The position numbers and the translations under genes were made by a program. The notes under the pieces were generated by a model. The model saw only the letters and a list, made by a program, of their open reading frames with translations, ran no database searches and was not told the origin of the DNA. 64,000 nt of DNA, taken from Atopobiaceae bacterium (lineage in GTDB: Bacteria > Actinomycetota > Coriobacteriia > Coriobacteriales > Atopobiaceae). The stretch covers positions 2,070,902 through 2,134,901 of the forward strand of contig JAKVOB010000001.1 in assembly GCA_022483015.1 (NCBI GenBank), in the 5' to 3' direction. Of this stretch, positions 16,304 through 25,392 are shown one piece after another (position 1 is the stretch's first letter; every line of letters starts with the position of its first letter).

Positions 16304-16624
16304 TCAGAGGGAGCTGCCCCCGCGACGTCCCGGGGAGCGGACGACCCTTACCGAGAGGAACGGGTTCTCGCGTGCCGCCCGCCTCATGACCGGCACCATC
16401 CGCTCGAGCGCCTCGGCTGCGGCACCTGCCGTGGGCCCCGTGAGGTCGACCACGAGGCACGTCGGGACACAGACGTCTCCCAGGCAGTCGGCGAGCGCCG
16501 CCAGGTTGTGCCCATAGTAGCTGGGGAATCCCAGCTCTCGGGCAAGGTGGTCATGGACGTCGCGCGCACCGGTGAGCCCGGCAGCAACGAGACGTACCTC
16601 TCGCACGCCCTTGTCCCGCCCCAT
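16304..16624 (-). CDS. Barstar-like ribonuclease inhibitor
   Basis: 106 residues. The segment FPSYYGHNLAALADCLGD (33-50) matches the barstar core that plugs the barnase active site; Tyr36 aligns with barstar Tyr29 and Asp46 with the key Asp39, while positions matching barstar Asp35 and Trp38 are both Ala (42 and 45). It starts 11 bases after the stop of a barnase-like gene, so it is the cognate cytosolic immunity protein by both homology and context. The ATG at 16624 gives the conserved length; a longer frame upstream overlaps the RNase gene and is rejected. Confidence 0.88.
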   Translation of the reverse strand: MGRDKGVREVRLVAAGLTGARDVHDHLARELGFPSYYGHNLAALADCLGDVCVPTCLVVDLTGPTAGAAAEALERMVPVMRRAARENPFLSVRVVRSPGRRGGSSL

Positions 16625-16635
16625 GACGCCTCCCC

Positions 16636-17130
16636 TCAGTAGAGCTGCTCGAACGTCTGGTAGTGGTCGTCGGTGTAGAAGACAAGCCCGTCGTTGGAGA
16701 AGATCTCGCGCTCGGAGCCCCGATAGCCCCCGTGGTAGTCGATGTCGCACTCCGTCCACGTGCGCCCATCGGCGTCGGGCAGGTCCCCGTCATCGTCGTA
16801 GTAGGTGCTGCCGCCGATGCTCCTGCCTGGCAGGACCTCGTCGAGGTTGCCCTCCGACGAGACCCAGCCGGCCGCCCGGGCCTTGGTCTTCGAGACGAAG
16901 TTGGACGGGAGGTGGCCATAGGTATGTATGTAGAGGGCGACCTCGTCCTTGCTCGTATAGGTGCCGTCCTCGGTGACGCCTGCCTGCGAGGCCGCGGCGG
17001 ACGTCGTGGGCGTGGCCGACGCGGCCCCTGCACCCGAGGCCGAGCAGCCGAGGAGGCCCGGTGCCACTGCCAGCACCAGTGCGAGCCCGAGGGCAACCAT
17101 GCGTTCGATATGTGAACGTCGACATCCCAT
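16636..17130 (-). CDS. Lipoprotein-type barnase-family ribonuclease
   Basis: Guanyl-preferring extracellular RNase of the barnase (microbial N1/T1) family, 164 residues. The N-terminus is a lipoprotein signal ([10 protein letters not shown], hydrophobic core, lipobox LLGC with Cys29), followed by a Ser/Ala/Thr-rich linker. The mature domain aligns along the whole of barnase: [49 protein letters not shown]. Catalytic residues are kept: Lys81, Glu127, Arg137, Arg141 and His156 (barnase Lys27, Glu73, Arg83, Arg87, His102). Membrane anchoring is unusual, since classical barnase is freely secreted. A barstar gene follows directly. Confidence 0.92.
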
Positions 17131-20377: not shown

Positions 20378-23300
20378 ATGGAACGACACGCCCACATCGC
20401 GGCGGAGGCAGGCGGACGCCGGGCCGAAGGCACGTCGCACGACGGGAGGGGCCTCGGCCATGGCGTCCGAGGCCCGAGGACGCCGCTGCTTGCCCTGATG
20501 CTCCTCGTGGTCCTGGTCGGCCTCGCCAGCCATGCGACCCCGTCGCACGCCAAGGTCAACCCCTACCAGGACGTCACGGTCGACCAGAGCTGGATGGGCC
20601 AGTCCTCTGGGCTCTCGTTCGACCAGAACGCCGCCAGGCTCGACGAGTCACGGTCGTGGGCGAGCTTCCCCAATGCCGACGAGGAGCTCCACATCGGCAG
20701 GGACATATGGGGCGGCGAGGCAGAGGGGCAGTACACGGTCAGGCTCCCCGTCCCGCTGGGTCGCCGCAACGACCCGACCACGGTCACCTCGAACGCCATC
20801 GGCCAGCACATGCTCGACGGCGGCGAGATCATGGTCGTCTATGCGCTCGAGGGCACCACCTACCACGGCCATCCCATAGACATGACGGTGCACGTCACCA
20901 ACCTGAGGGACTGCTACTACCTGCAGCGGAGCAACAACAACCCGTACCTGTTCAACAAGGCGGCCGTGGTCTGGGACGACCCCGACCACGGCATCGGCTA
21001 CGTCTTCTCCTTCACGCCGTTCTCCACCTCGAGCTCCCGCCTGGAAGGAATCCAGTCAGCCGACATCGAGGTCACCTTCGCCTACTCCGACGGCCATAGC
21101 GACACCGCGTCTGACGGCTCCGTCGTCCCCGACCACATGGTCGACATGGACGACGCGGACCACCTCTGGTGCACTGCGGGCCAGCTCGACCAGGACTACC
21201 TCGGCGTCGAGGGCGTCCAGATTCTCGACAACGCCTGGCAGGGGTACTTCTCGACCACCACGTCCATGCTGAGGGGAGACGTCACGAGCGCCTCCGGCTA
21301 CCAGCTCAACACCGCACGTGACCTTCGTGACGACGGCCGCACCTGGTCGCCGACGCTGCTCGGCGCCCCCTACTCCGACACCCCGGCGACGCCCACCTAC
21401 TACGGGACCACGCCCGACATGCGCATCCAGCCGGCCGACCGAGGCGTGCTCGACGGCTACATAGGTGACACGAGCAGGGTCGAGGGTGCGCCCTTCGAGA
21501 GCTACCGCAGGGCGATGGTCGCCGCGGGCTATTCCACGTGGATCGACGCGGGCGTGTCCTGGAGCACCGAGCCAGGCTCCTGGGCACGGACCAAGTTCAC
21601 GGTCCTGGACCAGGTCGGGTCGATCGGCTGGCCCATGAGCTTCGCCCCCATCACGGCCGAGGAGCCGACCGCCCCCACCAAGACCGTCGACAAGGACGAG
21701 GCATGGCAGGGAGACGTCCTCACGTACGAGGTCACGCAGAGGATCAACCAGGCCGGCGTCGACTGCGCGAACAACTACCACTACACCTCCTGGGTCTTCT
21801 CGGACACGCTCCCCGTCGGGGCGACGCCCACGGCCCTCAGGGTCGAGTGGGAGGACGCAGAGGGCACGCGCCATGATGCCACGGCCGAGCAGGGCACCAC
21901 CAGCATCGAAGGCCAGACCGTGACCTACACCTTCGACGCGGCCGCCCTGGGCAGGATGGTCCTCAACGGGAGCGACTACCACTTCGTCATCTCGGCCGTC
22001 GTAGACGCCAGCACCCCCGGGGGAAGCGTGCTCACCAACACGGCGAGCAACACGTTCAACTCCCGCTACACCATCGAGACGAACCCCGTCTCGACCACCG
22101 TCATCCCCACCTATGGCGTCTCGGTCACGAAGCGGGACGACGCCGGCGGCACGACGGCGCAGGGGGACGCCACCCTCGAGGGGGTCACGTTCGACGTCAT
22201 CAACAGCTCGGGCAGGGCGGTCACGACCAGGGGTGGCACCACCTATGCCGACGGGGCCATCATCACCAGCGTCACGACGGATGGGTCGGGCCTGGCCGCG
22301 ACCGCACCGACGCTCCTCCCGTCAGGCACCTACACGCTCAGGGAGTCGGGGGCCAACCCCTCGCTGCTCGTCGGCAGGGACGTCTCGAGGACGGTCGAGG
22401 TCCTACCGGGCACCGCGGACGGCACCGTGGTCGCGGCCGAGGCATCCGTGTGCGACCCCGTGGTCCGCGGTGGCATCTCCGTGCGGAAGGTCGACGTCGA
22501 GACGGGCGAGGCCCGGCCGCTCGGGGACGCCACGCTGTCGGGCGCGGAGTTCACGCTCACCAACTCGAGCCAAGGGCCCGTCGTGGTGGATAGCACCACC
22601 CATGGGGCGGGCGAGGTCGTCTGCGTCCTCGTCACCGACGAGGACGGCCTCTGCCAGACCGGACCGACGGACCTCCCCTATGGGACCTACACCGTCACGG
22701 AGACCAAGGCACCGACCGGCTACGAGCTCGCCCCCACCTGGGAACAGGTCGTCCAGGTGCGGGACCAGGGCGTCGTGGTCCCCTGCCAGGCCGACTGCGC
22801 CGACCAGGTCTTCCGCGATGACATGGCCTTCTCGAAGGTCCTCCTGGACAAGGCCGCCGGCACCCAGGAGCCCCTGAGGGGTGGCACCTTCCTGGTGACC
22901 AGCAGGACCACCGGCGAGTCGCACGCGATCGTCCTCGACGAGAACGGCACGTACGACTCGAGCGAGCACCCCCACAGCGAACGCACCAATGCCAACGACG
23001 ACGCCGTGAGCGTGGGCGACGACGGCATCCGACGGGTGGACGAGTCCAAGCTCGACCCAGGCGCGGGGACCTGGTTCTTCGGCCACACCCTCGAAGGCCG
23101 TCCCGGAGCAGGCTCCACGCCGGGCGACGAGGTCGGGGCCCTCCCCTACGACACCTACGAGATACGGGAGCTCCGTACCTCCGGCAACGCCGGGTACCAG
23201 CTCGTCAGCTTCACGTTCGAGTGCCACAAGGACCGTGCCCTGACCGACCTCGGCACCAAGGTCGACCTCAGGCAGGCCGCACCCGGCAAGGCCTACGACA

Positions 23301-24586
23301 CCAACAACACGCTCGGCGTGGACGACCCCGTGACCGACGCATCGGCCGTGGGCATCGGCGACCGGGTCTGCTACCGGCTCTGCGCCACCAACACCACGGA
23401 CGAGGCCGCCTCGATGACCTTCACGGACACGCTCTCGAGGGGGCTTGCCTATGACGGGAACGCCGTGGCATACGACGCCGACGGCAAGGAGCGCACCATC
23501 GACTCGCTGGATGCCAGCACGCACGACGACGGGACCACGACGCTGACCATCCGCCTCGACGAGGTCGCCGCCAACGGCGTCGCGAGCGTCCACTACACCG
23601 CCACCGTCGGTGCCGACGCGACCGACCAGGTCGAAAACGACGCGTCCGTGGGCATAGGGGCCGAGACGGACGTCCGGCTCGACAGGCTCACGAACCCCGT
23701 CGCGGCGCCACGGGTGCGCATCGACAAGCACCTCGCCTCCGTCGACCTCGACGGGGGCACCGCCTCCTACGACATCACCGTCACCGCCGAGGGCGCAGAC
23801 GTCGCGGCCGGCTACCGCGTCGCGGACACGTTCGACAACCTCGAGGTCGCCGGCTTCACGGCCACCGACACGGACGGCACCGACATCACGGCCGACGTCT
23901 CCTTGGATGACGGCACCTTCACGATGCCTGGGTTGGCCGCCGACAGCCCTGTGACGCTGCACGTCAGCTTCGCCATCACCGACACGGCCATACGGTTCCA
24001 GAACCACGTGCGCCCCAAGGACCCCGACCAGTCCTACGAGCTCGACAAGGTCCGTTGCGACGAGGACGGCACCGCCTTGGCGACCGACCAGGCACCGGCG
24101 GCCGTCGGCGACACCGTCCACTACCTCGTGAGCGTCACCAACACGGGCACGGAGGCGCTCCCCTCCCTCACCGTGGAGGACGTGGCCTCGAAGAACATGA
24201 CGCTCGTCGCGGCCTCGGCAGGCAAGCTCGCGGACGGCGCCCTCACCTGGGACACGGGCGAGCTCGAGCCCGGCGCGACGGCCAGCGTCATCGTGGACGC
24301 GACGGTCGACTCGACAGGGGACGGCACCTACACCAACACCGCCAGCACGCCCGACCACGCGGTCGTCGTGACCGACCCGTTGGCAGGACCTACCGCCGAC
24401 ACGTCCCCGACCCCTGGCGATGCGGGGCCCTCCGATGCCCCGGGCGGCGGGACCATGCCAGGAACGGGCCTTGGCACCGCGGCCTATGCGCTCGCGATCG
24501 GGGGCGCGGCGGTCATCGGCGCAAGCGTCGTCGGGCTCCTCCGCCACAGGAGGCGGGCGGACGCCCGAGGGCACGAGATCGGATGA
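20378..24586 (+). CDS. Sortase-anchored surface adhesin with isopeptide/SpaA-type domains
   Basis: Large cell-wall-anchored protein, 1,402 residues. A long signal region (basic/polar 1-37, hydrophobic 38-52, cleavage near SHA at 56-58) is followed by an N-terminal region of about 380 residues without a recognised fold. Next come an isopeptide-type domain (about 430-570), two SpaA/Cna-B-like repeats (about 580-690 and 695-800), a VaFE-like segment beginning AFSKVLLDKA (about 815-960), and further D2/DUF11-type beta domains to about 1,345. The C-terminus has a sorting signal, MPGTG, a hydrophobic helix and the tail RHRRRADARG. MPGTG varies from the LPxTG consensus. The start has GGAAGGAG upstream and the stop overlaps the sortase start. 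Confidence 0.9.
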   Translation: MERHAHIAAEAGGRRAEGTSHDGRGLGHGVRGPRTPLLALMLLVVLVGLASHATPSHAKVNPYQDVTVDQSWMGQSSGLSFDQNAARLDESRSWASFPNADEELHIGRDIWGGEAEGQYTVRLPVPLGRRNDPTTVTSNAIGQHMLDGGEIMVVYALEGTTYHGHPIDMTVHVTNLRDCYYLQRSNNNPYLFNKAAVVWDDPDHGIGYVFSFTPFSTSSSRLEGIQSADIEVTFAYSDGHSDTASDGSVVPDHMVDMDDADHLWCTAGQLDQDYLGVEGVQILDNAWQGYFSTTTSMLRGDVTSASGYQLNTARDLRDDGRTWSPTLLGAPYSDTPATPTYYGTTPDMRIQPADRGVLDGYIGDTSRVEGAPFESYRRAMVAAGYSTWIDAGVSWSTEPGSWARTKFTVLDQVGSIGWPMSFAPITAEEPTAPTKTVDKDEAWQGDVLTYEVTQRINQAGVDCANNYHYTSWVFSDTLPVGATPTALRVEWEDAEGTRHDATAEQGTTSIEGQTVTYTFDAAALGRMVLNGSDYHFVISAVVDASTPGGSVLTNTASNTFNSRYTIETNPVSTTVIPTYGVSVTKRDDAGGTTAQGDATLEGVTFDVINSSGRAVTTRGGTTYADGAIITSVTTDGSGLAATAPTLLPSGTYTLRESGANPSLLVGRDVSRTVEVLPGTADGTVVAAEASVCDPVVRGGISVRKVDVETGEARPLGDATLSGAEFTLTNSSQGPVVVDSTTHGAGEVVCVLVTDEDGLCQTGPTDLPYGTYTVTETKAPTGYELAPTWEQVVQVRDQGVVVPCQADCADQVFRDDMAFSKVLLDKAAGTQEPLRGGTFLVTSRTTGESHAIVLDENGTYDSSEHPHSERTNANDDAVSVGDDGIRRVDESKLDPGAGTWFFGHTLEGRPGAGSTPGDEVGALPYDTYEIRELRTSGNAGYQLVSFTFECHKDRALTDLGTKVDLRQAAPGKAYDTNNTLGVDDPVTDASAVGIGDRVCYRLCATNTTDEAASMTFTDTLSRGLAYDGNAVAYDADGKERTIDSLDASTHDDGTTTLTIRLDEVAANGVASVHYTATVGADATDQVENDASVGIGAETDVRLDRLTNPVAAPRVRIDKHLASVDLDGGTASYDITVTAEGADVAAGYRVADTFDNLEVAGFTATDTDGTDITADVSLDDGTFTMPGLAADSPVTLHVSFAITDTAIRFQNHVRPKDPDQSYELDKVRCDEDGTALATDQAPAAVGDTVHYLVSVTNTGTEALPSLTVEDVASKNMTLVAASAGKLADGALTWDTGELEPGATASVIVDATVDSTGDGTYTNTASTPDHAVVVTDPLAGPTADTSPTPGDAGPSDAPGGGTMPGTGLGTAAYALAIGGAAVIGASVVGLLRHRRRADARGHEIG

Positions 24587-25392
24587 GCGCACGCGTCGCC
24601 AGAGGGGACCGGAGGGCCGACCACCGCCTCGGCAGGAGACACCCGACCAGGCACGGCAGGCTCGTCACGGCCTGCCTCTGGTCGGGGGTCGCGCTCGGCC
24701 TCCTCCTCATAGGCCTCGCGGCCCCGCGCCTCGTGCAGGACGCACGGTCCCGCACGGCCTCCGAGGAGCTCTCGGAGGCGGCGGGGCCCGCCTCCCGGGA
24801 GGCCTCCGACCACCAGGGCACGGGACCCGACTGGGCCACGCTGAGGCAGGTCAACCCCGACGTCATCGCATGGATGAGGATAGAGGGGACCACCATCGAC
24901 CATCCGGTCGTCCGCTCAGAGGCGTCCCGTCCCACGTGGTACCTCTCGCATGCGTTCGACGGGAGCGATGACGTCTGCGGGAGCCCCTACGCCGACGTCG
25001 GGTGCGAGGCCGACGACGCGGCCGTCGTCGTCTTCGGGCATAACTGCTGGCCACGGACCGACCTGGTGTTCTCGCCCCTGCGGGACACCTACGAGCAGGG
25101 GCGCTTCCTGGGGCTCGGCGAGCTCGGCTGGTGGACGCCCGGCCGTGGCCTCGTCCGTCTCAGGCCGCTTCTCGCCCTGCTGCTGCCCGAAGGGACCCTG
25201 ACGTCACGCCTCCGACCCGAGGCCCAGACGCCCGCGGGCGTCCGCACGCTCCTTGCGGGGCTGCTCGCAGACGCCACGGCGACCTCGCCCACGGCGGCAC
25301 AGGACCTCGCGGAGGCACGGCGCTACGTCCTGCTCTCGACCTGCTCGCCCCAGGGCGGCGAGCGCAGCGTCGTCGTCTTCGTGGCCGCATGA
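24583..25392 (+). CDS. Class B-like sortase
   Basis: Membrane transpeptidase, 269 residues, whose start overlaps the adhesin stop as ATGA, which makes the adhesin its obvious substrate. A basic N-terminus and one membrane segment (about 27-47) orient the catalytic domain outside. The catalytic triad is His153 (VVFGHN), Cys254 (LLSTCS) and Arg261 (GGERSVVVF). The NPDVIAWMRIEGTTIDHPVV segment is characteristic of class B. Canonical SrtB enzymes cut NPQTN-type motifs, while class B enzymes of pilus clusters recognise other signals; the neighbouring MPGTG signal therefore suggests the pilin/adhesin branch. Confidence 0.88.
   Translation: MSARVARGDRRADHRLGRRHPTRHGRLVTACLWSGVALGLLLIGLAAPRLVQDARSRTASEELSEAAGPASREASDHQGTGPDWATLRQVNPDVIAWMRIEGTTIDHPVVRSEASRPTWYLSHAFDGSDDVCGSPYADVGCEADDAAVVVFGHNCWPRTDLVFSPLRDTYEQGRFLGLGELGWWTPGRGLVRLRPLLALLLPEGTLTSRLRPEAQTPAGVRTLLAGLLADATATSPTAAQDLAEARRYVLLSTCSPQGGERSVVVFVAA

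Follow-up and report, generated by a model that had tools for sequence, protein, structure and literature searches.

The minus strand of positions 16304-17130 of the window, by which we mean the whole 64,000-nucleotide stretch that was analysed, consists of two open reading frames (ORFs), one for an RNase and, 11 nt downstream, one for a barstar-family inhibitor (Table 1), in agreement with the preliminary description of a barnase with an adjacent barstar. The RNase ORF scored 55 bits against Pfam PF00545 (Ribonuclease; cut-off 24) and the inhibitor ORF 53.4 bits against PF01337 (Barstar; cut-off 23.4). Among PDB sequences, the RNase aligned without gaps to barnase residues 7-108 (E ~1e-32) and the inhibitor to 1b2u/1a19 (E ~4e-6). 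RNase relatives were gathered from Coriobacteriia, other Actinomycetota, Bacilli and Clostridia (196 loci), many of them originating from rumen and other gut metagenomes according to the record titles, and in 165 of these loci the RNase gene is immediately followed by a same-strand barstar gene. The family scores, together with the adjacency of barstar in the relatives, exclude a chance origin of the gene pair. Each of the two genes is present in a single copy in the 2.28-Mb genome, which holds no orphan immunity gene.

Table 1. Features of the RNase and barstar genes, in window coordinates
Feature	Position	Strand	Basis
Barnase-family RNase P0001, 164 aa, predicted lipoprotein	16636..17130	-	ORF, Pfam, PDB matches
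Leader, 29 residues: Arg-rich n-region, hydrophobic core (h-region), lipobox	17044..17130	-	sequence
Lipobox LLGC, residues 26-29	17044-17055	-	sequence
Cys29 codon	17044-17046	-	sequence
Ser/Thr/Ala-rich linker, residues 30-60, from Cys29 to RNase domain	16951..17043	-	sequence; domain starts at residue 61
RNase domain, residues 61-162 (barnase 7-108)	16645..16950	-	PDB alignment
Guanine-binding loop Asp112-Asp113-Asp114 (barnase Asn58-Arg59-Glu60)	16789..16797	-	alignment
Asp113 (barnase position 59), charge-swapped	16792-16794	-	alignment
TGA stop of RNase gene	16636-16638	-	sequence
11-nt spacer, ribosome-binding-site-like GGGGAGG ahead of barstar ATG	16625..16635	-	sequence
Barstar-family inhibitor P0002, 106 aa, without signal peptide	16304..16624	-	ORF, Pfam, PDB matches
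Barstar helix-2: Ala42 (Asp35), Ala45 (Trp38), Asp46 (Asp39, kept)	16487..16501	-	alignment
Barstar Arg82 (canonical Glu76), partner of barnase position 59	16379..16381	-	alignment

No widely recurring neighbour other than barstar was found around the related loci, the commonest being present in only ~7-11 of them, and a glutamine synthetase III neighbour is common to the window locus and that of its closest relative (L005) alone. A conserved neighbourhood was consequently dropped as a clue to function, barstar alone being widely shared. A search with PADLOC gave no match and NCBIfam gave matches below cut-off only. Elsewhere in the window, a 1402-aa surface protein (20378-25392, plus strand), named from its sequence alone, ends like a sortase substrate, with MPGTG, then a hydrophobic tail and basic terminal residues, and is followed by a sortase-like ORF. 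Among the relatives, six Lachnospiraceae loci (L051, L054, L057, L058, L064 and L074) encode Arg59 barnases without an adjacent barstar and share same-strand neighbours of ~273, 388 and 494 aa, some of them membrane-like. Many Bacilli genomes hold two barnase-family genes (L142-L152 and their sister copies), one of which adjoins a gene for a conserved ~334-aa protein with a lipobox-like leader.

Contact residues and the 59-76 charge swap

The statement of the preliminary description that all catalytic residues are kept stood for Lys27, Glu73, Arg83, Arg87, His102 and Tyr103 (barnase numbering), which are present in the window RNase, the first five as Lys81, Glu127, Arg137, Arg141 and His156, and identical in all 113 relatives first compared; the protein is presumably a catalytically active RNase. 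It did not extend to the Asn58-Arg59-Glu60 loop, which reads Asp-Asp-Asp, and with Asp at these positions the guanine specificity may be lowered or altered. Arg59, absent from the window RNase, was retrieved in just 46 of the 165 paired relatives and is, to judge from the alignment, a trait of barnase itself, variable in PF00545 (Tyr, Arg, Asp, Phe) rather than family-defining. On the side of the inhibitor, the active-site plug Asp39 is retained, and Asp35 and Trp38 are both replaced by Ala, as had been noticed before. The contact of Asp35 with the guanine-binding loop is likewise a trait of canonical barstar, variable in PF01337 and not family-defining. Two further changes, that of Arg59 in the RNase and that of Glu76 to Arg82 in the inhibitor, were absent from the preliminary description and turn out to be linked.

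Barnase-barstar is a standard model for protein-protein recognition, in which the Arg59-Glu76 contact has been dissected earlier with engineered mutants. In published structures, Arg59 touches barstar Asp35 and Glu76 in the “site I” contacts (PMC11408511; PMC8837141), and an Ala substitution at Glu76 has a cost of 1.6 kcal/mol (PMC4148194); the Arg59-Glu76 coupling is described as relatively weak in one study (PMC7830974) and listed among the hot-spot pairs with strong coupling in another (PMC2231411). The window pair shares with that of Bacillus amyloliquefaciens (PDB 1BRS) both protein families, the adjacency of an exported RNase and a cytosolic inhibitor, the catalytic residues and the Asp39 of the active-site pocket. 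It differs from it by a lipobox in place of a secretion signal, by Arg59 changed to Asp together with Glu76 changed to Arg, and by the Ala residues at 35 and 38. The global charge of the window pair is also inverted relative to that of B. amyloliquefaciens, the RNase domain (16636-16950) having a net charge of -12 and a pI of 4.4, against +1 and 8.1 for the barnase segment used in the comparison, and the inhibitor (16304-16624) a net charge of +3 and a pI of 9.1; the other pairs of the clade described below are less extreme on average. The pairs of Lachnospiraceae and other Bacillota resemble that of the window in their adjacency, their frequent lipobox and an RNase domain mostly 55-65% identical, whereas they have Tyr, Phe or Arg at 59, keep Asp35 and, in most cases, have Asp or Glu at 76.

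Among the 165 adjacent pairs, an acidic residue occupies position 59 in 48, and every one of these has Arg at barstar 76 and Asp at 39, Asp35 being lost in 42 of them. The 46 pairs with Arg59 all have Asp35; their barstar 76 is acidic (Glu or Asp) in 45 cases and Gln in the remaining one. Tyr59 is mostly paired with Asp76. In a set of 122 non-redundant pairs, residues 59 and 76 are oppositely charged in 62 and like-charged in none. Ranked by corrected mutual information, the 6732 inter-protein column pairs are headed by 59-76, followed by 59-35. Asp35 is kept alongside Asp59 and Arg76 in five non-redundant pairs, which suggests that the 59/76 swap does not require the loss of Asp35. A possible second swap, between barnase Lys29 and an acidic barstar 43, was discarded because an acidic 43 is also common in pairs that lie outside the clade described next.

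When the loop columns were left out, an RNase tree (105 columns; many forks unresolved) grouped the acidic pairs into a clade of 35 rows, 33 of them acidic, with an SH-aLRT of 95, and indicated that the acidic state at 59 arose essentially once. The members of this clade are Coriobacteriia records throughout, save L007 and L067, which have other titles. Within the clade, both proteins of L007 have changed together (Tyr59 with Asp76), as have those of L067, where Ile59 occurs with Ile76 and Asp35 is present. Facing Ile76, the Ile59 of L067 may substitute a hydrophobic contact for the swapped salt bridge.

This single origin leaves room for a reading of the 59/76 covariation as the mere shared ancestry of one clade, free of any physical compensation. 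When all columns were simulated as independent of one another along the same tree, the 59-76 value was attained by a given column pair in only ~3-9 per 100,000 cases, and by the maximum anywhere among all pairs in 14 of 100 simulations. A blind test on the top inter-protein covariation is therefore not significant under the phylogenetic null, and we rely on the contact having been known beforehand. The coupling is also weak outside the clade, since 59-76 drops to rank 156 (z 2.5) when the acidic pairs are removed, and sign tests on independent pairs have too few independent events to draw on. Taken together, rank 156 and the 14 of 100 imply that most of the signal stems from one evolutionary event and two later coordinated changes, so that the case rests on the known contact and the complete charge complementarity, and not on many independent events. 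Ancestry alone nevertheless seems an unlikely account: the 59-76 contact was chosen independently of its ranking, it outranks every other pair of clade-diagnostic columns, barstar 76 is the sole barstar column changed uniformly with the clade (33/33), and L007 and L067 altered both sides together. In place of the drifted interface proposed previously, the alignments point to an interface that is not drifted and has undergone a coordinated charge swap on both proteins, fixed throughout one Coriobacteriia clade. No description of a charge-swapped barnase/barstar clade was found in the open-access literature and, as far as that literature shows, this clade is undescribed, the pair itself belonging to the known barnase and barstar families.

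Possible antagonism, anchoring or release

Barnase domains and barstar serve as toxin and immunity protein in polymorphic toxin systems, of which simple pairs have been proposed to be the forerunners (PMC3482391). The window pair could thus represent an antibacterial toxin, either diffusible or dependent on contact, to which barstar confers immunity, with the swap as an arms-race switch of specificity, an idea close to the contact-dependent antagonism first suggested for this locus. The much faster evolution of barstar than of the RNase (mean identities within the clade of 38% and 72%, respectively) goes in the same direction. The pair shares the RNase fold and the immunity family with Tox-Barnase/Imm-Barstar systems (PMC3482391) and departs from them in having no trafficking, repeat or pre-toxin domain in its 164-aa RNase and no immunity cluster, a single barstar being present. 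No polymorphic-toxin or contact-dependent machinery was detected, and no secretion genes recur among the neighbours of the related loci, where barstar is the only conserved one. Throughout the clade the swap is a fixed trait that does not diversify between neighbours, and close competitors should therefore cross-protect each other. Finally, a linker of ~31 residues would probably not extend far enough for the RNase to reach a neighbouring cell through the wall. With these points against it, antagonism has a low probability as the role of the pair, and the earlier suggestion of contact-dependence finds no support.

The lipobox previously noticed at Cys29 was confirmed in the sequence, where it follows the Arg-rich and hydrophobic regions expected of such a leader, and the genome encodes a signal peptidase II (lspA; PF01252, 122.6 bits). 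An alternative is processing by signal peptidase I and release of the RNase, as for barnase, the LLGC motif being incidental, and AxA-like sites do occur in the Ala-rich linker. This is quite improbable in the light of the relatives, 110 of 196 of which (56%) have lipobox-like leaders, against 1.5% of shuffled leaders, and of the nearest two, L005 and L003, in which the Cys recurs at the matching place despite different linkers. A lipobox-like site is present in 28 of the 48 acidic-clade loci, and those lacking it mostly present an N-terminal helix that resembles a transmembrane (TM) anchor, with no cleavage site apparent (one truncated locus aside). The occurrence of either a lipobox or a TM helix across the clade implies that tethering is a shared feature of which the chemistry varies. 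The membrane tethering of the RNase proposed at the outset is thus supported by the comparison of leaders, and Cys29 would be the lipidated residue. Judged from these leaders, lipobox-bearing barnases are common and not peculiar to the window; no description of lipid-anchored barnases was found in the open-access literature.

Predicted docking and a proposed self-protection module

The preliminary description had advised a prediction of the complex, which was run by proxy on the pair of L005, the closest relative, with an RNase domain 87% and a barstar 55% identical to those of the window. The RNase and barstar of L005 share a reading frame interrupted by a TGA, which was read as Gly; the own stops of 40 other pairs were treated likewise, giving a paired alignment for AlphaFold2. 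The read-through model obtained is confident (pLDDT 88, pTM 0.81), for the L005 pair and not for that of the window, and its sole disordered part is the linker of ~30 residues. The RNase half matches barnase with a Z of 20.6 (rmsd 0.8 A over 109 residues) and the other half matches barstar with a Z of 12-13. As a pTM ceiling of ~0.5, estimated from the domain sizes, would be expected for two domains without a defined mutual arrangement, the value obtained suggests that they dock, presumably at the canonical site. By homology and by this model the window RNase is predicted to have the barnase fold, and the docking geometry of its pair would follow by extension from L005. The possibility that the window barstar is a poor inhibitor at a drifted interface, to which the two Ala residues and the low barstar identity within the clade could be ascribed, is very improbable given the invariance of Asp39 and Arg76 in the 48 acidic pairs, the complementarity of 59 and 76 in every charged case, the maintained adjacency of the genes and the confident joint model of L005.

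The explanation that we favour, with good confidence for the whole, is a self-protection module made of an anchored RNase and a cytosolic barstar with a swapped rim contact. Sec would export a guanyl-type RNase of the barnase family, which its lipobox would tether by a lipid to the external side of the cytoplasmic membrane, while the cytosolic barstar would cap RNase not yet exported and thereby protect the producer. The two would dock as barnase and barstar do, with barstar Asp39 in the Lys27/Arg83/Arg87/His102 pocket, and at the rim an acidic RNase residue facing an inhibitor Arg would take the place of the canonical Arg59-Glu76 (and Arg59-Asp35) contacts. Outside the cell, the RNase would most likely cut RNA near the membrane for nucleotide or phosphate supply. 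Breakdown of RNA at the surface, with barstar as self-protection, is in our opinion a reasonably probable role; the scavenging of RNA at the cell surface put forward in the preliminary description is compatible with the data as a proposal, to which no gene of the context points.

We also propose, more tentatively, that the Coriobacteriia pairs with an acidic 59 and Arg76 could constitute a natural orthogonal specificity class, whose barstars would give no protection from canonical barnases and whose RNases would not be stopped by canonical barstars. If so, a textbook high-affinity interface would have inverted its rim polarity in nature. A naturally reversed charge pair represents ready-made material for understanding how tight interfaces change their specificity, and the clade makes available intermediates with Asp59, Asp35 and Arg76 (L017 and L009) as well as two later coordinated re-switches. 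The clade further suggests that surface-tethered RNases with cytosolic inhibitors are common in gut Coriobacteriia and Lachnospiraceae.
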